NCBI GenBank assembly: GCA_002722215.1 | Contig: PBKX01000004.1 | Location: forward strand, 1 to 35,275 | DNA: 35,275 nucleotides | Direction: 5' to 3' | DNA from: Flavobacteriales bacterium | GTDB lineage: Bacteria > Bacteroidota > Bacteroidia > Flavobacteriales > TMED113 | Part shown: positions 13,837-24,865 of the stretch, one piece after another | Layout of the letters: every line of letters begins with the position of its first letter | How positions within the stretch are numbered: position 1 is the first letter of the stretch | Notes under the pieces: model-generated | The model's input: the letters and a program-made list of their open reading frames with translations, nothing else | Databases searched by the model: none | What the model was told of the DNA's origin: nothing | Made by a program: the position numbers and the translations under genes

Positions 13837-15078
13837 ATGGATTTATTTGAGAAAATAAAAAAAAATAGAGGGCCTTTAGGTCAACACGCGAAAGATGCTC
13901 ACGGATATTTTACATTTCCAAAATTAGAAGGAGAAATAGCAAGTAAGATGATCTTTAATCAAAAAGAAGTGATCTGTTGGAGTATTAATAATTATCTAGG
14001 ATTATCTAATCACCCTGAAGTCCGAAAGGTTGATGCTGATGCTACTAAAAAGTTTGGACTTGGAATACCGATGGGCTCACGAATGATGTCTGGTAATACT
14101 ATTTATCATGAGCAATTGGAAGATGAATTGTCTAAATTTTGTCAAAAAGAAGACACAATATTATTAAACTTTGGTTATCAGGGTATGCATTCAGCTATTG
14201 ATGCGCTAGTTGATAGAAAAGATGTAATAGTATATGACTCCGAATCACATGCATGCATATTAGATGGCGTAAGGCTTCATCTTGGCAAAAGGTACCAATA
14301 CCCTCATAATGACATTATAAAGCTTAAAAAACAGCTTGAAAGGGCAACTCAAATTATTAATGAAACTGGTGGATCCATACTTCTTATTACAGAAGGTGTG
14401 TTTGGTATGGCTGGAGACCTAGGCAAACTAAAGGAAATATGTGCACTAAAAAAAGAATTCTCATTTAGATTGTTTGTAGATGATGCTCATGGAATTGGTA
14501 CTATGGGAGAAAATGGAATTGGAACAGGAGAATACTTAGGTGTACAAGATGATATAGATATTTATTTTGGAACTTTCGCAAAAAGTTTTGCTAGTATCGG
14601 TGCTTTCATTAGTTCTAAAAAAGATGTTATTGAATACCTAAAATATAATACTCGATCACAAATTTTTGCAAAATCTCTACCCCTACCTCTAGTAATAGGT
14701 GCACTCAAAAGACTAGAAATAATCAAAAAAGACCATTCTCTAAGAGAAAAATTATGGTTAATCACTAACCAATTACAAACTGGACTTAAAGAAAATGGTT
14801 TTAATTTAGGATTGACCGAAAGCTGTGTCACCCCTGTTTTTCTATCTGGTGGGGTTGGCGAAGCAACTAATTTAACTGTCGATCTAAGAGAAAATTATGG
14901 AGTTTTTTGTTCTATAGTAACATATCCTGTTGTGCCAAAAGGTACAATTATGTTAAGGCTTATTCCAACAGCGACACATACAGAGGAAGATGTAGAAAAA
15001 ACAATTTATGCATTTAAAGAGGTTAAAGAAAAATTATTTTCAGGTAAATATATATCTGATAAAATTGCTGAAGTTTAA
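13837..15078 (+). CDS. Alpha-oxoamine synthase, serine palmitoyltransferase-like (PLP-dependent)
   Basis: This belongs to the family that condenses an amino acid with an acyl thioester and loses CO2 (serine palmitoyltransferase, KBL, AONS). At 413 residues it is full length. PLP residues are visible: the Schiff-base Lys249 in GTFAKSFAS, Asp216 and His218 in VDDAHGIG, and a ring-stacking His in DSESHACILDG. YPVVPKGTIMLRLIPTATHTEED is a C-terminal family motif. The N-terminus MDLFEKIKKNRGPLG and overall likeness place it with the Bacteroidota SPT-type enzymes that make sphingolipid bases or, with cysteate, sulfonolipid (capnine) bases. Amino-acid choice cannot be read from sequence. ATG 13837 is preferred to TTG 13822. 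It ends in a 4-nt overlap with the convergent gene. Confidence 0.88.
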   Translation: MDLFEKIKKNRGPLGQHAKDAHGYFTFPKLEGEIASKMIFNQKEVICWSINNYLGLSNHPEVRKVDADATKKFGLGIPMGSRMMSGNTIYHEQLEDELSKFCQKEDTILLNFGYQGMHSAIDALVDRKDVIVYDSESHACILDGVRLHLGKRYQYPHNDIIKLKKQLERATQIINETGGSILLITEGVFGMAGDLGKLKEICALKKEFSFRLFVDDAHGIGTMGENGIGTGEYLGVQDDIDIYFGTFAKSFASIGAFISSKKDVIEYLKYNTRSQIFAKSLPLPLVIGALKRLEIIKKDHSLREKLWLITNQLQTGLKENGFNLGLTESCVTPVFLSGGVGEATNLTVDLRENYGVFCSIVTYPVVPKGTIMLRLIPTATHTEEDVEKTIYAFKEVKEKLFSGKYISDKIAEV

Positions 15079-15758
15079 AATCTATAAAACTTCGAGACAG
15101 TTTGATCACTATGAATTTGAAAAATAAATCCAGCACTATTACTTAAACCAATATCTCTTCCATATAAATCAACTTCTTGCACTATATCTTGCAAGTTTTT
15201 TTGTTCCGACAAGTGCACCAGTGCACACCCAATAGTAATATCAAAAAAATCATCTGAATTGATTTCAAAGCTAATTGATTGAATAGAGGCCATTCCATTC
15301 GTACCATATGTGTTGGAAAATGGAGTATCTGTGGACATGGTTAAAAAAGATTGATCATATACACCAATTTGATTACCATTTGCGTAAACACATAATTTAA
15401 AAAAATAAGATTCACCACTAAAAAAGCCATCTTTTTCGGGTGTTGTAGTATCATCACCCCAAGCTGATAATGCCATACTTGCAGCACTATTCCAAGCAAC
15501 ATATCCAGCACACGACAATTCACCAACATCATCGGTGTAAAAAACACCTATTTGAGCTTCACAAGCTATGCTAGAAATACCAACAGATTCCCCTGTTTCT
15601 TCTGAGATTATTAGAAAAGAATTAAAATTATCTTCTAATATTGCAATTGTTGCATTACTAGCAGTATTTGGGAACTCCCAAATGTCACAATCATTCACTT
15701 GTGAAAATGACACAAGACTAAAATAAACAACTATGATTTTCAATAATAAACTTTTCAT
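15075..15758 (-). CDS. Secreted protein with short T9SS-type C-terminal motif
   Basis: A 227-residue protein with a signal peptide (MKSLLLKIIVVYFSLVSFSQ). The middle (about 35-150) resembles a module found repeatedly in large flavobacterial surface proteins: IGVFYTDDVGELSCAGYVAW, then SAWGDDTTTPEKDGF and ESYFFKLCVYANG. The function of that module is unknown to me. The end (LYGRDIGLSNSAGFIFQIHS, then a basic YRF terminus) resembles the compact type A T9SS tail in which a D-x-x-GR-x-I turn leads to a G-x-x-x-x-I-x-x-D strand and a short basic end. It is probably exported by T9SS. It begins 12 nt after the lysyl oxidase fusion gene, so the two are likely co-transcribed. Several Cys residues fit a secreted, disulfide-containing protein. 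Confidence 0.75.
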   Translation of the reverse strand: MKSLLLKIIVVYFSLVSFSQVNDCDIWEFPNTASNATIAILEDNFNSFLIISEETGESVGISSIACEAQIGVFYTDDVGELSCAGYVAWNSAASMALSAWGDDTTTPEKDGFFSGESYFFKLCVYANGNQIGVYDQSFLTMSTDTPFSNTYGTNGMASIQSISFEINSDDFFDITIGCALVHLSEQKNLQDIVQEVDLYGRDIGLSNSAGFIFQIHSDQTVSKFYRF

Positions 15759-15770
15759 AATGATAAAAAA

Positions 15771-18700
15771 TTATTTTTCTATTACCATATGTTTGACAAA
15801 TGAAACTTGATCAATACTAACTTTGACTAAATATATTCCATTGACATAGTGACTAACATCTAATTGTTTGTACATTTTTTTTACATAAAAATTGTCAGAC
15901 CATATAGTCTGTCCTAACATATTACTTATCTCAATATTTATGTCTGATATATGATCTAACTCTAATTTTAAGTCGATTAAATTAGAAGCCGGATTTGGAT
16001 ACATAATAAATGAATGACCAATATCATTATCAATACTGACGTTAGATATACAATCTTCCGTATTATTAAGTGCAATCACATTTTCATAATCTTGATTAAC
16101 TACATCTATAATAGTTTCAATACAAGCATTCTCTTCTATACTAGAATAATAAATTCTACACAGAGGTGCAGGATCATAATTTTTAATAATTAGAGAGTCT
16201 TCATATGAAACACCTAACACCATACCATTTCCAGTGGAAAAAGATGGAGTAATTGGATAATTTTCAACTAAATTTTCAACCGAAGTAATAGATATATTTC
16301 CCATAATAAACTGATATCCCAATACTTCATTATCTGGATTTAGAATATGAATATCTACATACCCTTCTTCTAAATTTAATTCTCCAATACTAAACTGAAC
16401 AGTATCATTCGGATTTGTTATTGACATACCAAATTCACACGGCTCAGATTGATTATCTCGAGTTACATCTTCTTCATTTTCAATACAATTAACAAGAAGT
16501 GCTATATCAGAAACTGTAATTTCACCATCCATATCTAAATCATTACAAGAAGTAGCATTCCAATCAGATGAAATAATATCCGAAGCATATATCTGCATAT
16601 CCGAGATATCTAAAAATGAATCTAAATTAACATCCCCTGAAATAGATTCTCCACCACAAATACCATTGCAATCGTATTGAGCATTTCCAAATTCCACCCC
16701 ACTACAATCAGTATAAACAGGACACACTGATAATCCATAAGGAGTTTCATCCAAATCATTTATGACTCCATCTCCATCTGCATCTTCATCACTGCTATTC
16801 ATAATACCATCACCATCAACATCTGGGTCATTAATATTCTCAATGCCATCACTATCAATATCTACTGCCATATAGTAACCTCTAGAACCATCGTCATTTG
16901 TAAAAACTCCAATACATGTTTGCTCCCAATTATTTTCATAACTAAGCTCAATATTACCTATCGCATCTGGATCTTGATCCCAATTTGTTCTCACTACAAA
17001 TGTGTATTCTCCATCAGCAACATCGGTAATATCTATCCACTGGCACGAAAGACCAGATCCATAAATATCACCACAACCTGTTGATATCCCCATAACACTA
17101 CATCCATAGGTGTATGTCCCTGGCGGGACCCCATATTCATCATCTCCCCCACATTCTAAATCCATGACACAAAAACCATTTTTAAAACCAACCGGAATTA
17201 GTTGCCCAGTGGAATCAAATAATACATATTCTGCATAACCTTTATAATGCCAATGATTATGACACATATCCCATTCAAATTGATTTGTCTCTTCATTATC
17301 ATTAACTGATCCAATGAAATAATCTTGATTACCTACATTTTTAATGTGTGTAGAAAACCTTATTATTGATCGTGTTCCATAACCAGTTAAACAGCCTTCT
17401 TCTATTGCACAACCATCTTCATTTTCATAAATCTGTAAATACATGCTAGATTCAAAAGGCATAACTAAAAGATCTGGCCCATTAATACAATCTGGATCAC
17501 CAGGGTAAATACATGAATTATCATCATTTTCTGCTATGGGATTATAATTACAGGCTGTTTCGTCTGTACATCCAGATATAGGGCCTATATAATCTAATTC
17601 CCAGTCAATACTTTCACAATCCCCTTTAATTCTAATATAATATGTATCCCCTGCCGACATTAAAGGATAAATTTGAGATTGTAAACCACATAAATCATCA
17701 TTATAATAAATAGTTCCATCATTATAATCAGATGGGACTAGTCCTGTACAATAATCATAAACATAAACAATAGTATTACAATCGGATTCACACGTATTAA
17801 TATCATATTGTCCATTGACTTCAGCTGTAAATACATACCAATAATCATCTGATTCAGTTGTATAATTACCAAGCCCAACTTCAATCGCCGTATTACAATC
17901 ATATCCAGGCGGGCAATTCATCGTAATTGAACTGTTATATTGAAAATCTGGATTTTCTAATACAAGATTTTCCTCATAATAAACTTCAACACCACCACTT
18001 GAATATATCCCATCACCATAACTATCATAAACAGTGAAAATATAACAACCATCATCAGGAAGACAGTATTGAAAAGGATAAGCTACATAAGCTTCTTCAA
18101 AGACAGGGTCCTCAGAAGCCCAAATAATACCTTGATTATCATTTAATGTAAAGGATGTTTCCCCAGGATATGGATCTGTGCTAATTAAAATATCAATTTG
18201 TATTTCATTTAATGAACATTCCAGATCATATAGACAGGAGCCGTCATCAAAAGTAGCTTCTGGATTAAAATTAATTACACCTTCATCAGTACATCCATAA
18301 ATGTCAAGTTCATCACATATAGTATTTGCATTTAAATCATTAATACAATTACCAGTACAATCATAATACTCAGCTGGATAGATACAGAAAGACTCATAAA
18401 TAGCTGTGCCATCATAATTACAAGCTGTATCATCCATACAACCATATAAATCACAATCTTCAGATGCTATGATGAAATTTTCAGCTCCACCATAGCCAGA
18501 AGGAGACTCGCCATTATTATTTGCAAGAACAACTCCCCCATCACAAATACTAACTGAGTATGTCCCCCCTGAATTCCACCCATCTCCATAAGAATCATAA
18601 GCATTAAAAATATATGTCTGATTCTCATCTAAACAAGCATAACTCGTATAAAGACCCCAATCTATATAAAATGTGTTAAGAGCTGGGCTATTAGCAACAA

Positions 18701-19421
18701 GAATACTATCTGAACTCTGGATATCCCAAGTAATTTCACTAGCCCAATTGCCTATCATAATATCAATCATAACTAGTTGCTCCCCATCTACACATTCTGT
18801 AGGATACTCACAAGAGTCTGGGGCTGAAATATCATTATCTTCACTATAGTTTATAGCTGAAACATCCATACATCCAATAGTATATTCACAACTACCATCA
18901 TCTTCTAAACATTCTGCACAAAAATTTTCTGCTTCTGGGTCTATACAACCAAACACATTACAATATAATGTTAATGCAAAATCACCTTCATTCGTGCCAT
19001 AGCCACTGACATATATATAGTATGTATAATCTGAGTCAGCATAAAATGAAACTTGTGAATGCAAATAAGTGCTTTCACAAACATAACCATCATCATTCCC
19101 CGTTACACATGAAATGTTAAAACCATCATCTTGAAAAACATGAAGTTTTGTATCATACGAAGAATCACACATTCTTAACATAAGATCAGAGTCATTTCCG
19201 TCCAAATAATACCAAACTCCTGGAGACGCATCTACAGATGTACCACAATCATTTAATCCCCATTCTGTTAATTGTTCTTGGTCAGAAGAATAACCGGTGG
19301 TTGTGGACTCTATAGATATGTCACATGTAATTTCTAAAGCATTGGATATATCATCATTATCTTGAGAAAAAGACAAAAAATTGCAACAAAAAAAGCATAA
19401 AGGAATAAAAATGTATTTCAT
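15771..19421 (-). CDS. Secreted multidomain protein with lysyl oxidase domain and type A T9SS sorting domain
   Basis: A 1216-residue secreted protein (signal peptide KYIFIPLCFFCCNFLSFSQ). In order: a PPC-like domain (about 22-150); GCxDxxAxNYxPxAxxDDGSCxY repeats near 157, 183, 326, 375 and 617; two YDSYGDG modules (about 274 and 465); a second PPC-like domain (about 508-612); a lysyl oxidase domain (about 645-850); TSP3-like Asp-rich calcium repeats (about 853-891); a dockerin-like pair (about 925-980); and a type A sorting domain starting YPNPASNLIDL. The lysyl oxidase part has the copper motif HNHWH (721-725), Lys747 in GFKNGFC and Tyr787 in DIYGSGLSCQWIDITD, the pair that would form the LTQ cofactor. 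Predicted activity is oxidative deamination of peptidyl lysine or amines outside the cell. A TTG at 19436 is rejected as start. Confidence 0.85.
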   Translation of the reverse strand: MKYIFIPLCFFCCNFLSFSQDNDDISNALEITCDISIESTTTGYSSDQEQLTEWGLNDCGTSVDASPGVWYYLDGNDSDLMLRMCDSSYDTKLHVFQDDGFNISCVTGNDDGYVCESTYLHSQVSFYADSDYTYYIYVSGYGTNEGDFALTLYCNVFGCIDPEAENFCAECLEDDGSCEYTIGCMDVSAINYSEDNDISAPDSCEYPTECVDGEQLVMIDIMIGNWASEITWDIQSSDSILVANSPALNTFYIDWGLYTSYACLDENQTYIFNAYDSYGDGWNSGGTYSVSICDGGVVLANNNGESPSGYGGAENFIIASEDCDLYGCMDDTACNYDGTAIYESFCIYPAEYYDCTGNCINDLNANTICDELDIYGCTDEGVINFNPEATFDDGSCLYDLECSLNEIQIDILISTDPYPGETSFTLNDNQGIIWASEDPVFEEAYVAYPFQYCLPDDGCYIFTVYDSYGDGIYSSGGVEVYYEENLVLENPDFQYNSSITMNCPPGYDCNTAIEVGLGNYTTESDDYWYVFTAEVNGQYDINTCESDCNTIVYVYDYCTGLVPSDYNDGTIYYNDDLCGLQSQIYPLMSAGDTYYIRIKGDCESIDWELDYIGPISGCTDETACNYNPIAENDDNSCIYPGDPDCINGPDLLVMPFESSMYLQIYENEDGCAIEEGCLTGYGTRSIIRFSTHIKNVGNQDYFIGSVNDNEETNQFEWDMCHNHWHYKGYAEYVLFDSTGQLIPVGFKNGFCVMDLECGGDDEYGVPPGTYTYGCSVMGISTGCGDIYGSGLSCQWIDITDVADGEYTFVVRTNWDQDPDAIGNIELSYENNWEQTCIGVFTNDDGSRGYYMAVDIDSDGIENINDPDVDGDGIMNSSDEDADGDGVINDLDETPYGLSVCPVYTDCSGVEFGNAQYDCNGICGGESISGDVNLDSFLDISDMQIYASDIISSDWNATSCNDLDMDGEITVSDIALLVNCIENEEDVTRDNQSEPCEFGMSITNPNDTVQFSIGELNLEEGYVDIHILNPDNEVLGYQFIMGNISITSVENLVENYPITPSFSTGNGMVLGVSYEDSLIIKNYDPAPLCRIYYSSIEENACIETIIDVVNQDYENVIALNNTEDCISNVSIDNDIGHSFIMYPNPASNLIDLKLELDHISDINIEISNMLGQTIWSDNFYVKKMYKQLDVSHYVNGIYLVKVSIDQVSFVKHMVIEK

Positions 19422-19551
19422 AATAAACAAATTCAAGTAATAGATATCAAATATACTGAATTCCTATAGTAAAATTTATTAATTGTTGCTAAAACAAAGA
19501 AGATCATATCATATATTTTTATAAATTTGAACAAATTCAATAATACATCAA
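19422..19551. promoter_or_regulatory. Divergent promoter region, lysyl oxidase gene / DUF6580 gene
   Basis: Two TAnnTTTG -7 elements point outward. On the minus strand TATATTTG (complement of 19448-19455) lies 26 nt before the ATG at 19421 of the lysyl oxidase fusion gene. On the plus strand TAAATTTG (19522-19529) lies 22 nt before the ATG at 19552. No firm -33 boxes are seen. The spacing matches other promoters in the window. Confidence 0.6.
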
Positions 19552-20076
19552 ATGTTAAGTAAACAAAATACATTAGCCATTGTCTTTATTTTTGTTGGTT
19601 TTTTTAGTCGTGTTCTTCCTCATTTTGAGAATTTTACTGCCATATACGCAATTGCACTATTTTCAGGGGCATTTTTACAAAATAAAAGACTTGCCCTACT
19701 TTTACCTATTGGTATTATGATGAGCTCTGATTTAATATTAGGATTCTCACCATATCTACCAACATATATGAGTTTTATCGCGATTGTTTTTGTTGGACGT
19801 TTACTGCAAAAAAAACAAAAAATTGAACATATTATCTTAGGAGGAATATCTGCTAGTTTACTTTTTTTTATGATTACTAATTTATTTGTTTGGATAAACT
19901 CATCCCCAGCAGATGGGATATTTTATTGCCCAAAGACCCTAGTAGGTTTAATTAAATGCTACACACAAGCTATTCCTTTCTTTTGGAACACATTATGTGC
20001 AACGATGTTATATTCAACAATCCTATTTTATTCATTCAGGGTAATCAATTCGAAATTATTTAAAACAGTAAAATGA
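19552..20076 (+). CDS. DUF6580-type integral membrane protein, possible transporter
   Basis: A 174-residue hydrophobic protein with about five or six predicted membrane segments (for example TLAIVFIFVGFFSRVLP, YAIALFSGAFL, LALLLPIGIMMSSDLILGF). Family features include the N-terminal FSRVLPHFENFTAIYAIALF and the PIGIMMSSDLILGF stretch, which I associate with the DUF6580 putative transport family, distantly like S-components of ECF transporters. No substrate can be read. Its stop overlaps the start of the lysine-dehydrogenase-like gene by 4 nt (20073-20076), so both are translated together and may share a pathway. A promoter element lies 22 nt before the ATG. Confidence 0.75.
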   Translation: MLSKQNTLAIVFIFVGFFSRVLPHFENFTAIYAIALFSGAFLQNKRLALLLPIGIMMSSDLILGFSPYLPTYMSFIAIVFVGRLLQKKQKIEHIILGGISASLLFFMITNLFVWINSSPADGIFYCPKTLVGLIKCYTQAIPFFWNTLCATMLYSTILFYSFRVINSKLFKTVK

Positions 20077-21188
20077 CAGAAATATTAGTACTTGGCGGAG
20101 GAAGAGTAGGTAGTGCAATTGCATATGATTTATCTAAAGACTATTCTGTCACTGTAGCAGATATCAATCAAGAAACATTAACAGTTCTTGCTGAAAAATA
20201 TAAACAAAAAACTATTTATGCGGATTTTTCAAATCTAATTGATTTAAAAAAAATACTAAAAGAATATGACTTAATTATTTCTGCCGTACCAGGGTTCATT
20301 GGATTTAAAGTATTAAAAACAATTATTGAGAGCAAAAAAAATGTAGTTGATATATCCTTCTTCCCAGAAAACGCACTTGATTTACATGATTTAGCAGAAA
20401 AAAATAATGTTACTGCTTTAGTAGATTTTGGTGTCGCTCCAGGACTAGGTAATATACTATTTGGTCATTATGACACTTTAATGAACATCGATAAATATAC
20501 ATGTTATGTTGGCGGATTACCAAAGATTAAAGAGAAGCCATTTGAATATAAAGCGCCCTTTTCTCCTATTGATGTGATTGAAGAATATACTCGTCCTGCT
20601 AGATTATTTCAAAATGGCAACATTATAGTGAAAGAACCATTAACAGAAATTGAGTTAATTAAATTTAATACATGTGAAGATTTAGAAGCGTTTAACACAG
20701 ATGGTTTACGCAGTTTATTATATACTATGTCACATGTACCTTACATGAAAGAAAAAACACTCCGATATCCAGGCCATGCAAAAAAAATACAGTTTTTAAA
20801 AGATGGGGGATTCTTTTCATATAATGAGAAAACAATCAATGGTGTGAATTACCGTCCTCTTGAAATCACTGCCGACATACTTAAAGAAAACTGGTTTTTG
20901 AAAGAAAACGAAGAAGAATTTACAGTAATGAGAATTATATTAGAAAATAAAAATCAAAATATAACAATTGATTTATATGATGAATATGACAAACATACTA
21001 ACATTACATCTATGGCGAGAACAACAGGTTACACATGTACAGCTGGCGCAAATCTACTGACAAATAACTTGTTTAAAAATAAAGGTATATTTCCACCTGA
21101 ACTAATAGGAAAAGATAGAAAATGCTATGACTTTATTATGAAGCACCTCAATCAACGCAATATTCATTTAAATACAAATAAAAATTAA
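20073..21188 (+). CDS. Saccharopine dehydrogenase family protein, lysine 6-dehydrogenase-like
   Basis: A 371-residue Rossmann-fold oxidoreductase. The N-terminal dinucleotide motif is EILVLGGGRVGSAIAYDL, followed by an acidic residue suited to NAD binding (VTVADINQ). Later features are LVDFGVAPGLGNILFGHYD, CYVGGLPKIKEKPFEYK, TLRYPGHAKKIQFL and TSMARTTGYTCTAGANLL. This order and the GGxP-x-x-x-x-P-x-EY and RYxGHA motifs agree with characterised bacterial L-lysine 6-dehydrogenases, which deaminate lysine to allysine (cyclising to piperideine-6-carboxylate). Saccharopine-forming activity is an alternative within the superfamily. It overlaps the DUF6580 gene by 4 nt. A related enzyme lies on the other strand at 23603-24865. 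Confidence 0.82.
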   Translation: MTEILVLGGGRVGSAIAYDLSKDYSVTVADINQETLTVLAEKYKQKTIYADFSNLIDLKKILKEYDLIISAVPGFIGFKVLKTIIESKKNVVDISFFPENALDLHDLAEKNNVTALVDFGVAPGLGNILFGHYDTLMNIDKYTCYVGGLPKIKEKPFEYKAPFSPIDVIEEYTRPARLFQNGNIIVKEPLTEIELIKFNTCEDLEAFNTDGLRSLLYTMSHVPYMKEKTLRYPGHAKKIQFLKDGGFFSYNEKTINGVNYRPLEITADILKENWFLKENEEEFTVMRIILENKNQNITIDLYDEYDKHTNITSMARTTGYTCTAGANLLTNNLFKNKGIFPPELIGKDRKCYDFIMKHLNQRNIHLNTNKN

Positions 21189-21190
21189 AT

Positions 21191-21213
21191 AATATAAATT
21201 TCATTTATATTTG
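21191..21213 (+). promoter_or_regulatory. AT hairpin overlapping -7 element before Cys-rich gene
   Basis: AATATAAAT (21191-21199) and ATTTATATT (21203-21211) form a 9-bp inverted repeat with a 3-nt TTC loop, starting 3 nt after the upstream stop. Its right arm overlaps TATATTTG (21206-21213), a TAnnTTTG -7 element 39 nt before the ATG at 21253. It could be a weak terminator, an operator, or just AT-rich chance. Confidence 0.4.
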
Positions 21214-21252
21214 TATTCCTAAATTTATAGCACTTATAAAAGAAAAAATTAT

Positions 21253-21516
21253 ATGTCTGAAAAAGTAAAATCAAATTGTTCAACATCTAGTAATTGTTAT
21301 GCCATTATTGCATTATGTGTAGCATTTCTTACCCTTGGTCTTTTAATTGGGAACTGGGTTGGAAAATGTCAAAAATCAACAAAATGCAATAAATCAAAAA
21401 CGTGCCAGCCTTATTCTCTTGATGCAAAAAGTGGGAGTACGTGTACATGGTCAAAAACAGAAAAATCAGAAAAACAATGCACAACTAAGGGAGAAAAAAC
21501 TTGTTGTAAAAAATAA
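21253..21516 (+). CDS. Small Cys- and Lys-rich single-pass membrane protein
   Basis: An 87-residue protein of unknown family. Residues 15-37 (CYAIIALCVAFLTLGLLIGN) form one membrane helix. The roughly 50 residues after it are hydrophilic and rich in Lys, Ser and Thr, with seven of the ten Cys residues (39, 45, 51, 64, 76, 84, 85), the last two adjacent near the C-terminus. There is no CxxC motif and no lipobox. It lies between the lysine-dehydrogenase-like gene and DPP III with its own candidate promoter. The clear start, promoter and codon pattern make a real gene likely. Metal binding or disulfide crosslinking are only possibilities. Confidence 0.65.
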   Translation: MSEKVKSNCSTSSNCYAIIALCVAFLTLGLLIGNWVGKCQKSTKCNKSKTCQPYSLDAKSGSTCTWSKTEKSEKQCTTKGEKTCCKK

Positions 21517-21545
21517 TATTAATTAACACATTAAAATATTCAAAA

Positions 21546-23600
21546 GTGAAAATCCAAAAAATAACCATCTACTGTATAATATTCTTCTTATTCACATCTT
21601 GCAACACTAATAAAACTGCTACTCAAGATGATTTTCAATATCTAACAGAACAATTTGCAGATTTAAAAATGATCCGCTACAAAGTCCCTGGTTTTGAAAA
21701 TTTAGACTTAAGACAAAAAAAATTAATCTATTTTTTATCTCAAGCTTCACTGAGTGGTCGAGACATAATATTTGATCAAAACTATAGGCATAACTTAAGA
21801 GTAAGAAGAACTCTAGAAACTATTGTTGCTAATTATCCCGGTGACAGACAAACAGAGGATTTTGCATCATTCATGGAATATACTAAACGCGTATGGTTCT
21901 CAGGGGGAATACACCACCATTATGCGTCTAAAAAGATGAAACCGAAATTCTCATCTGAATACTTTGTTAATGAATTGATTTATCTAACTGAATCTTCAGA
22001 AGAATATGCTTTTCCACTTATAGAAGGCGAGGATAAAATGGACCTTGCAAGAGAACTAGATGAAATTATCTTTAACCAAGAAATAGACGCCAAACGAGTA
22101 AATCGAGATGCAGGTATCGACATAATAATAGGGTCAGCAAATAATTATTATGGGCCTAATGTCACGCAAGAAGAAGCTAATATATTTTATAAAAAAGATA
22201 TTGAAGATAAAGCACCAGAATATGGTCTTAATTCTAAATTAGCTAAAGATGATGATAATAATTTATATGAAAAAACATATAAAATAGGTGGAATGTATAG
22301 TGATGCTATTGAACAAATAATTTATTGGATAGAAAAAGCAAAAGATGTTGCTGAAAATGAAGATCAAAAAAAATCATTTGAATTACTAATTGAATACTAT
22401 AAAACTGGGGACATATCTAAGTGGGATGATTATTGTGTACAATGGGTACAAACATTAACAGACATAGACTGGATTAATGGTTTTGTAGAAGTATATGGGG
22501 ATGCAGCCGGAAGAAAAGGAGCGTATGAATCTATTGTTCAAATAAAAGATATGGAGGCGTCTAAAACAACAGAAGTAATTAATGAATATGTCCAATGGTT
22601 TGAAGACAATTCAAGTATTATGGATGAACATAAAAAAGAAAATGTTGTTGGAGTAAGCTATAAAGTAGTGACGGTAGCGATGGAGTCTGGAGATGCATCG
22701 CCCTCATCTCCAATTGGAGTTAATTTACCAAACAATAACTGGATCAGGACTGAAAAAGGATCAAAATCTGTAAGCTTAGGGAATCTTATTGCAGCATATG
22801 ATGGCGCAGCTACTGGATCCGGATTCTTAAAAGAGTTTTGCTATTCAGAAGAGGAAGTAGAAAGAGCAAAAAAGTATGGAGATATAGCTGATAAATTAGG
22901 CACATTACTTCATGAAGTAGTTGGACATGCATCTGGAAAAATCAATGAAGGTGTTGGTACTCCTAAAGAAACATTGAAAAATTATAAATCTACATTAGAA
23001 GAAGCGAGAGCAGATTTAGTTGCACTATATTATATTATAAATGAGAAACTAGTTGAGATAGGACTAATGGAGTCTATTGAGTGTGGAAAAGCAGAATATG
23101 ATTCTTATATAAGAAATGGATTAATGCTTCAATTAAGAAGGATTGAATTAGGACAACATATTGAACAAGACCATATGCGAAATCGACAACTTGTATCAGC
23201 ATGGGCATATGAAAAAGGACTTTCTGAGAATGTAATTGAAAAAAAGATAAAAGATGGAAAAACATTTTTTGTGGTTAACAATTACAAAAAACTGCAAAAT
23301 ATTTTTGGAAAATTATTAAGAGAAATTCAAAGGATTACTTCAGAAGGTGATTTTGAAGCAGGGCAAGCACTAGTAGAAAATTATGGAGTAAAAGTTGATC
23401 AAAAAATTCACACAGAAGTTTTAGAGAGATCAAAACAATTTGATAGCGCACCATATGGTGGTTTTATTAATCCAAAATATTCATTGGCAAAAAATGAAAA
23501 GAATGAAATCACAGATGTTATAATCGAATATCCTGATGATTTTACCACGCAGATGATGGAATATGCTAAAACATATTCCTTTCTACCTCATAGAAACTAA
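21546..23600 (+). CDS. Dipeptidyl peptidase III family lipoprotein (M49 metallopeptidase)
   Basis: A zinc exopeptidase that removes dipeptides from the N-terminus of oligopeptides. The M49 zinc motif is HEVVGH (456-461), the six-residue HExxxH form that distinguishes DPP III from ordinary HExxH enzymes, and the second motif EEARAD (485-490) supplies the third zinc ligand. The length of 684 residues fits. The N-terminus is a lipoprotein signal ending LFTSC with Cys19, so the enzyme is anchored in the envelope, probably periplasmic. The start is a GTG at 21546; it is kept because the signal peptide begins there. It follows the Cys-rich gene by 29 nt. The gene ends 2 nt from the convergent saccharopine dehydrogenase gene. 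Its dipeptide products would feed amino-acid catabolism. Confidence 0.93.
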   Translation: MKIQKITIYCIIFFLFTSCNTNKTATQDDFQYLTEQFADLKMIRYKVPGFENLDLRQKKLIYFLSQASLSGRDIIFDQNYRHNLRVRRTLETIVANYPGDRQTEDFASFMEYTKRVWFSGGIHHHYASKKMKPKFSSEYFVNELIYLTESSEEYAFPLIEGEDKMDLARELDEIIFNQEIDAKRVNRDAGIDIIIGSANNYYGPNVTQEEANIFYKKDIEDKAPEYGLNSKLAKDDDNNLYEKTYKIGGMYSDAIEQIIYWIEKAKDVAENEDQKKSFELLIEYYKTGDISKWDDYCVQWVQTLTDIDWINGFVEVYGDAAGRKGAYESIVQIKDMEASKTTEVINEYVQWFEDNSSIMDEHKKENVVGVSYKVVTVAMESGDASPSSPIGVNLPNNNWIRTEKGSKSVSLGNLIAAYDGAATGSGFLKEFCYSEEEVERAKKYGDIADKLGTLLHEVVGHASGKINEGVGTPKETLKNYKSTLEEARADLVALYYIINEKLVEIGLMESIECGKAEYDSYIRNGLMLQLRRIELGQHIEQDHMRNRQLVSAWAYEKGLSENVIEKKIKDGKTFFVVNNYKKLQNIFGKLLREIQRITSEGDFEAGQALVENYGVKVDQKIHTEVLERSKQFDSAPYGGFINPKYSLAKNEKNEITDVIIEYPDDFTTQMMEYAKTYSFLPHRN

Positions 23601-23602
23601 AA

Positions 23603-24865
23603 TCAGCTAGTAAAAAAGGAAATTCCTTCATTGGATAATCCTTTTAGTATTGGCTTATAGATTTCTTGATAGATAGGTATTTTGACTCCTTTTAGTGATA
23701 TTTTATCTTGAAGCAACAGTTTACATGCAAAAAAAACTGGTAAGCCCACTGTTTTAGACATTGCTGTTTGAATACTATCATCCCCCTTCACAACCATAGA
23801 TAATTGCATTTTATGATCTTCATTGTTAAGGGTGTAATAAAATTTATGCTGCATAACAATCATATCTTTATCTAATTTATCTAAAGACCATTTTTTCTTT
23901 AATACTTCTAGTAAATAATCAGAAGGACTACGATAATTTATTTCCTTGTTTGTATGATGAAATAAATCAAGATAAGCCATTTTTTTATTTATTTTCTCAT
24001 TATTAAGCTCTGTTAAATAATCTAAAAATATATCTTCCGAAATTAACTTTGTACAAGTATCTTCTGAAGTCATGCCCAATTGAACAAATACATTCCAAGC
24101 CTCTGAAAAACCAACTTTTCTCAATGTACCTCTTACTATCGTATGAGCATCTAATAAGTTATATTTCTGTTGATAATGTAATGAATCTCTATTTGCATAA
24201 GATTCGAACTCCCCATAATGAGGTATAATAACGTTTTCAGTATGTGAAAAAACTTCATCATACCCAAACTCTTTTATCGAACCATTCTTTAGATAAGAGG
24301 CTCCTGAACTTCCAGCTAAAACTACATTTTTTGGATTCCAAGTAAATTTATAATTCCATGGATTATTATCCGATTCTGGGGCAATTAAACCACCACAAAA
24401 TGATTTAAATGTGTTAATGACAGCACCCTTTTCATGTAACGAGTCTATAATATCCATCGCAGAGATATGATCTATACCAGGATCTAATCCAATTTCATTT
24501 AAAATTAAAATATTAGATCTTTTAGCATCAGAGTCTAATTTTTGAATTTCATCAGACACATAAGATGCTGTGATGAGATTTTTTTTAAATTCCACACAAT
24601 CTTTTGCTACTAGAATATGAAATTTCGGAGGAAGCATAGAAATAACTAAATCGGATTTTGAAATCTCTCGCCTTCTTGATTCATTATTATTAATATCAAT
24701 TGATAGAAAACGACATTTATTTTGATTAACATAAGAGTTAACAAAAGCATTTGAGCACTGATCTGCAAGCACAATTTCAGCATTAAGTTCTTTGCGAGAA
24801 TTTATCAAATACTTGATTAATGTATGTGTTGATCTTCCAACACCCAATAACAGGACTGTTTTCAT
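23603..24865 (-). CDS. Saccharopine dehydrogenase (glutamate-forming)-like protein
   Basis: A 420-residue Rossmann-fold enzyme. The N-terminus KTVLLLGVGRSTHTLIKYL is the dinucleotide motif. GLDPGIDHISAMDIID, FKSFCGGLIAPESDNNPWNY, KFTWNPKNVVLAG and RGTLRKVGFSEAW match the glutamate-forming saccharopine dehydrogenase domain (Lys9 or the C-terminal half of AASS). That reaction links saccharopine with allysine plus glutamate. No lysine-ketoglutarate reductase partner is in the window. It is convergent with DPP III (2-nt gap) and divergent from the DUF4476-like gene. Substrate is inferred from family motifs, and other superfamily roles remain possible. Confidence 0.82.
   Translation of the reverse strand: MKTVLLLGVGRSTHTLIKYLINSRKELNAEIVLADQCSNAFVNSYVNQNKCRFLSIDINNNESRRREISKSDLVISMLPPKFHILVAKDCVEFKKNLITASYVSDEIQKLDSDAKRSNILILNEIGLDPGIDHISAMDIIDSLHEKGAVINTFKSFCGGLIAPESDNNPWNYKFTWNPKNVVLAGSSGASYLKNGSIKEFGYDEVFSHTENVIIPHYGEFESYANRDSLHYQQKYNLLDAHTIVRGTLRKVGFSEAWNVFVQLGMTSEDTCTKLISEDIFLDYLTELNNEKINKKMAYLDLFHHTNKEINYRSPSDYLLEVLKKKWSLDKLDKDMIVMQHKFYYTLNNEDHKMQLSMVVKGDDSIQTAMSKTVGLPVFFACKLLLQDKISLKGVKIPIYQEIYKPILKGLSNEGISFFTS

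Follow-up and report, generated by a model that had tools for sequence, protein, structure and literature searches.

We describe here a lysyl oxidase (LOX) gene of a Flavobacteriales bacterium, which occupies positions 15771-19421 of the minus strand in the 35,275-nucleotide stretch of contig PBKX01000004.1 (assembly GCA_002722215.1) that was analysed as a whole and is called the window below. We propose that its product is exported by the type IX secretion system (T9SS) and works at the cell surface, or after release, as a lysyl oxidase standing on a base made of a dockerin and a cohesin, a mechanism to which we give, taken as a whole, a probability of about 60%. Judged by its linkage to LOX across genomes, the dockerin-cohesin module is an obligatory partner in a large class of Bacteroidota LOX, in which this architecture is the standard one, not a one-off fusion. 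The occurrence of LOX in Bacteroidetes has been known since 2015 (PMC4448552); a description of the dockerin-cohesin architecture or of its link to type IX secretion did not turn up in the full texts searched.

The reading frame starts with an ATG at 19421 and encodes 1216 amino acids, with a TTG at 19436 as a possible alternative start further upstream. The original prediction, made from the sequence alone, had called this frame, which is real, and had omitted its strand.

The LOX domain and its predicted export

Only two families exceeded their cut-offs when the window protein was scanned against Pfam, LOX and the sorting tail. PF01186 matched with 90.9 bits against a cut-off of 20.4 (E 1.1e-25), and a profile built from 61 relatives aligned to human LOXL2 over 184 columns (E 7e-39), bringing the His, Lys, Tyr and eight Cys residues of the two into register. 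The AlphaFold2 model, covering residues 636-1137 with a predicted local distance difference test score (pLDDT) of 84.7 and a predicted template modelling score (pTM) of 0.79, superimposes on the LOXL2 structure 5ZE3 with Z 18.8 and 2.4 Å over 189 residues; the predicted fold, proposed from the outset as a check, is that of LOX and places the three His in the LOXL2 motif. The original prediction had put the copper motif HNHWH at residues 721-725 and the precursors of the lysine tyrosylquinone (LTQ) cofactor at Lys747 and Tyr787, with 26 residues from the first His to the Lys and 40 from the Lys to the Tyr. These positions and spacings are exact, and the QWIDITD motif is present from residue 794; the corresponding residues of human LOX are His292/294/296, Lys320 and Tyr355, from which the spacings of 28 and 35 used for comparison derive (PMC9659206).

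Across 101 distinct relatives the five catalytic residues (the three His, Lys747 and Tyr787) do not vary in a single case, a count biased by the retrieval of many of these relatives with DNA patterns that contain the His motif. Family f15 and the B group, which were found by the Pfam profile alone without the motif, keep all five as well. The loss in close homologues named beforehand as counter-evidence was not seen. The Lys-Tyr distance in the model was dropped as a test, since the two LTQ residues lie 16.6 Å apart in the LOXL2 precursor crystal (PMC9659206). The LOXL2 pairs 573-625, 579-695, 657-673 and 663-685 (PMC9180022) have their counterparts in C671/C720, C677/C793, C751/C774 and C757/C783, and 8 of the 10 LOXL2 disulfide Cys align to Cys that are invariant in the main group; the fifth pair, C732-C746, has no clear counterpart in the window protein, where only C836 is found. 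The B group has lost 573-625 and 579-695 together, each as a complete pair, which fits a LOXL2-like connectivity. LOX is the most conserved module within the family, with 80-92% identity, where most other modules reach about 50-88% and the sorting tail 22-50%.

In sequence, HxHxH motif, LTQ Lys and Tyr, predicted fold and predicted disulfides, the window protein agrees with the LOX family on every feature tested, and alignment and model together make an active LOX-type amine oxidase very likely. A precedent is given by the haloarchaeal HTU-LOX, which after refolding with Cu2+ is an active, 3-aminopropionitrile-sensitive amine oxidase of broad specificity (PMC6452851), so that a prokaryotic LOX can be active. 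A catalytically dead binding module is hardly credible: it would agree with the fact that the literature consulted shows no activity of any Bacteroidota LOX, but it is opposed by the invariance of the five catalytic residues and by a conservation stronger than that of all other modules.

Export, judged by the C-terminus and the gene content of the host, is highly probable. Both PF18962 (48.8 bits against a cut-off of 27, E 8.5e-13) and TIGR04183 (39.3 bits against 23, E 4.9e-10) recognise the sorting tail, and the host genome carries the translocon gene sprA (2580 bits) together with 28 proteins bearing T9SS tails, which bears out the surface-sorting tail that had been read from the sequence.

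The dockerin-cohesin base

Behind LOX, the original prediction had noted a dockerin-like pair. The dockerin is genuine: a search with the A2 family profile ranks solved PDB dockerins first (E 4e-4) and Dockerin_1 matches 35 of 58 relatives (best 1.3e-7), the match in the window protein itself (E 0.05) lying under the Pfam cut-off. What had been overlooked is a cohesin directly after it. No sequence-level match exists in Pfam for residues 1002-1134, and the predicted fold of this region is that of a cohesin, with Z 11.5 and 2.8 Å over 123 residues in a first model, where the next matches are nearly all cohesins, and Z 9.2 in a separate second model, where cohesins make up most of the match list. 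The 235-residue dockerin-cohesin pair was modelled with pTM 0.86. For two unlinked domains of these sizes a pTM of roughly 0.6 is expected, because the placement would then be good for the larger domain only, in its own frame; from this difference, an indirect argument, we infer packing of the two against each other, and such packing within one molecule appears reasonably probable. The pTM of 0.79 obtained for LOX, dockerin and cohesin together, likewise clearly higher than expected of domains placed independently, suggests that LOX in turn packs on this base.

Counts were made in 395 genomes of the order, in 395 of the class Bacteroidia and in all 12 of the family of the window. Across the Bacteroidia sample the dockerin-cohesin module lies directly downstream, within 19-196 nt, of 67 of the 68 strong LOX matches, the sole exception beginning 5 nt from a contig end. 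Five places show the module without LOX; three of these matches are weak and one lies where a contig ends. The host genome holds the module once. Given this linkage, the rarity of LOX-free modules and the single copy in its own genome, LOX, dockerin and cohesin behave as one unit. The original prediction was right in setting LOX beside dockerin and calcium modules with a T9SS tail, and the fusion is not a rare one.

Some LOX match is present in 97 of the 395 Bacteroidia genomes and in 22 of the 395 genomes of the order, 12 of the latter being from the family of the window. PF01186 matches all 12 family genomes, with a full-length LOX in 11 and the divergent B type alone in one (G007). A draw from the phylum gave 2 true matches of 385 against 97/395 in the class draw, but the drawn sets and the queries differ and hence no phylum-wide percentage is given. 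A core of about 800 residues is common to Saprospiraceae, Chitinophagales and other Flavobacteriales, to which the family of the window adds N-terminal repeats and calcium repeats. The LOX sequences of this family form one clade (support 100), consistent with vertical descent within it. Tandem LOX genes were observed in single loci (L080, L090, L092, L095, L100), and family f15 (L023-L026) forms a LOX branch of its own, in which the module does not follow LOX directly; L023 shows further GCxD repeats at that place. One 566-aa frame (G769:C6:22845-23540) contains the module without a LOX match and adjoins a complete LOX gene, possibly as a decayed or converted duplicate.

Compared with known systems, human LOXL2 and LOX (PF01186; 5ZE3) share the catalytic fold, HxHxH, the LTQ Lys and Tyr and four of five disulfide pairs at aligned positions, whereas LOXL2 has SRCR domains, lacks dockerin and cohesin and uses the animal secretory pathway instead of T9SS. 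HTU-LOX of Haloterrigena turkmenica, likewise prokaryotic and with the same catalytic residues, is an archaeal, simple protein with a signal peptide and an autoinhibitory stretch, for which neither T9SS nor dockerin or cohesin is described (PMC6452851). LOX of Sorangium cellulosum (WP_012233967.1) also joins LOX to a Cys-rich non-catalytic part, but its Cys-rich C-terminal domain is by description of another kind (PMC6452851). Bacterial LOX of the same Pfam family and phylum were reported by Grau-Bove et al. 2015, who found prokaryotic LOX to be mostly LOX-only by Pfam scan (PMC4448552); such a scan would miss the base, as Pfam gives no match for the cohesin and the dockerin does not reach its cut-off. 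A search of full texts available without subscription returned nothing linking LOX with dockerin and nothing relevant linking it with T9SS. Cellulosomal type I cohesin-dockerin pairs (1OHZ, 2VN6, 6KGF) share the cohesin fold and the calcium-loop repeats of the dockerin, yet their halves sit on separate enzymes and scaffoldins, while here both follow LOX in one chain with extra conserved Cys.

Perhaps, and this we put forward only tentatively, these proteins are a Bacteroidota-specific class of extracellular protein-oxidising or cross-linking enzymes in which LOX is inseparable from a dockerin and a cohesin clamped in one chain, the pair serving inside the chain as a lock, structural or regulatory (in cofactor formation, calcium sensing or latency), instead of bringing different proteins together. 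If this is true, the single-chain clamp would put to an uncommon purpose a pair known mainly for linking one protein to another, and it might be useful for a stable bacterial LOX in protein or material cross-linking.

Proposed function and its alternatives

The role of bacterial LOX was called unexplained or cryptic by both the 2015 survey (PMC4448552) and a 2019 enzyme study. In established LOX chemistry, Cu and O2 make LTQ from Tyr and Lys, and amines are oxidised to aldehydes while NH3 and H2O2 are set free (PMC10532419, PMC9659206). By analogy, after export O2 and Cu would convert Tyr787 and Lys747 into the cofactor, and the enzyme would oxidise protein lysine side chains or other primary amines to aldehydes, freeing NH3 and H2O2. 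Dockerin and cohesin of one chain would plug together into a rigid, calcium-dependent base that holds, stiffens or gates LOX, while the Cys-rich modules and calcium repeats may serve as spacers and binders. Least certain is the last step, in which the aldehydes may tether the cell or its matrix to lysine-bearing protein outside it, for example on particles or from algae or detritus; that the enzyme serves to tether or cross-link is conceivable, at somewhat less than an even chance. A large, well-defined LOX class with a predicted export route and anchor, together with a culturable carrier, Phaeodactylibacter luteus (L088), makes the function testable.

Against this proposal, the lysine-catabolism genes beside LOX would also fit a nutritional role, and the lysine-poor T9SS cargo of the host gives self cross-linking few sites. 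In a nutritional role the enzyme would release NH3 from protein, dissolved or particulate, by acting on its peptidyl-lysine and free amines, and peptide allysine would be imported into the lysine catabolism encoded next door. Divergently from LOX, at 19552-24865, a family-specific cluster is observed that comprises DUF6580, a lysine-dehydrogenase-like gene, an M49 peptidase and a saccharopine dehydrogenase. The second of these (20073-21188) encodes a member of the saccharopine dehydrogenase family; among solved proteins its best relative is PH1688 (3abi, E 1e-73), which we take to be an L-lysine 6-dehydrogenase. This gene is followed by the M49 peptidase (21546-23600) and the saccharopine dehydrogenase (23603-24865; AASS, E 6e-66), and the three products presumably form or consume free allysine or cleave peptides. 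The lysine-dehydrogenase-like gene lies between LOX and M49 in 9 of the 9 family loci that have it and not so in 21 other Flavobacteriales loci, and HTU-LOX accepts many small amines (PMC6452851). However, the entire neighbourhood, housekeeping genes included, is syntenic within the family, so the adjacency may reflect ancestry alone and the link between LOX and lysine catabolism is only suggestive; LOX loci of other families lack such neighbours, and deamination needs neither surface anchoring nor binding modules. The neighbours were thus rejected as proof of function, and we regard a nutritional deaminase as rather unlikely.

Cross-linking of the own surface layer or extracellular matrix, in the manner of animals, is the classic LOX role (PMC4448552), and it would suit an enzyme that shares its surface with other T9SS cargo and is conserved in every family genome. 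Yet the T9SS cargo bodies of the host average 1.7% Lys (several near 0, lowest 0) against 9% for the cytosolic proteins encoded in the window. This weakens the suggestion in the original prediction that the cell's own surface proteins are the target and leaves this role doubtful. The cargo of two LOX-negative relatives is alike (1.5% and 2.6% Lys), hence nothing in the composition points to a LOX partner; for the same reason lysine avoidance as a signature of self-protection from LOX was rejected, although the mature LOX protein itself has only 6 Lys in 1112 residues. As for the base, dockerin and cohesin could instead act between molecules, stringing LOX copies or other dockerin and cohesin proteins into a small cellulosome-like surface array. 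Both halves on every copy would permit head-to-tail chains, and the tandem genes would agree with this; the predicted packing in cis (pTM 0.86) and the lack of any further match of the module in the own genome, where no same-type partner was seen, make such an array quite unlikely. Detoxification of cationic peptides or aminoglycosides is very improbable: HTU-LOX does oxidise polymyxin and several aminoglycosides (PMC6452851), but no resistance genes were noted nearby and the binding modules would be left unexplained.

With regard to lysine content, the T9SS cargo bodies of G000 and of G018/G031, all small Flavobacteriales genomes, have an acidic composition with little Lys or Arg, and several of them lack Lys altogether over about 490 residues. 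In the L059 and L063 cores of about 710 residues, one or two Lys are present in all, and the single Lys of the LOX domain is the predicted LTQ lysine.

Remaining modules and genomic setting

The protein is indeed Cys- and Asp-rich as first described (60 Cys and 137 Asp), and its modules are listed in the table. Five GCxDxxAxNY-like repeats could be located as predicted, though two or three are strict and the remainder degenerate; the last one (GCTDETACNYNP) is conserved beside LOX in relatives. The assignment of PPC-like domains is weak, with PPC (PF04151) matching 3 of 58 relatives (best E 0.0091) and GBD_T9SS_assoc 10 of 58 (best 0.0012). Calcium-binding D-x-D-x-D-G stretches lie at residues 854, 865 and 878, in the TSP3-like repeats, and another within the dockerin at 961.

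Table. Features of the LOX gene and its product in the window
Feature	Residues	Position	Strand	Basis
LOX gene, T9SS-exported lysyl oxidase (predicted)		15771..19421	-	Reading frame and Pfam matches
Signal-peptide-like N-terminus	1-24	19350..19421	-	MKYIFIPLCFFCCNFLSFSQ-type start, sequence reading without predictor
First beta-rich Cys module, "PPC-like"	25-156	18954..19349	-	Sequence reading only; weakly assigned to PPC
Envelope of five GCxDxxAxNY-like repeats		17478..18953	-	Repeat starts at residues 158, 183, 327, 376, 617
First D-S-Y-G-D-G module	207-325	18447..18803	-	By-eye likeness to residues 401-505 and to N-terminal module of shorter relatives
Second D-S-Y-G-D-G module, common to ~800-aa relatives	401-505	17907..18221	-	A3 alignment of 58 sequences and architecture
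Second PPC/galactose-binding-like module	506-616	17574..17906	-	GBD_T9SS_assoc E 0.005 in window protein, sub-threshold
LOX catalytic domain	649-838	16908..17477	-	PF01186, LOXL2 profile, fold match, best conserved module
HNHWH copper motif	His721/723/725	17247..17261	-	Aligned with LOXL2 His626/628/630; kept in 101/101
Predicted LTQ precursor	Lys747	17181..17183	-	Aligned with LOXL2 Lys653; kept in 101/101
Predicted LTQ precursor	Tyr787	17061..17063	-	Aligned with LOXL2 Tyr689; kept in 101/101
TSP3-like calcium repeats	854-890	16752..16862	-	D-x-D-x-D-G motifs; low model confidence in region
CxxYxDCxG...DCxGxCGG motif and type I dockerin	900-985	16467..16724	-	A2 profile vs PDB dockerins; Dockerin_1 in relatives; invariant Cys and Ca ligands
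Cohesin domain	1002-1134	16020..16418	-	Structural match of predicted fold
T9SS type A sorting tail	1140-1216	15774..16004	-	PF18962 and TIGR04183

On the other side of LOX, 12 nt downstream, a 227-aa secreted protein without family match is encoded at 15075-15758 (minus strand). It is present in genera g1, g2, g3 and g5 and missing in g4 and g7, for which reason it was rejected as an obligatory partner or substrate. The host genome amounts to 1.43 Mb in 39 contigs and is 81% complete, and its relatives of the same family are uncultured Flavobacteriales whose public records include single-cell assemblies and TMED, NAT, SAT and SP metagenome assemblies.

A second, divergent LOX type of about 690-970 aa (L012-L019 and L027-L030, for example L018:676-2958) keeps the five catalytic residues. 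It has an insert between the Lys and Tyr segments, lacks the first two disulfide pairs and is common in Bacteroidia as partial PF01186 matches near profile positions 128-197; in L018 it carries a T9SS tail.

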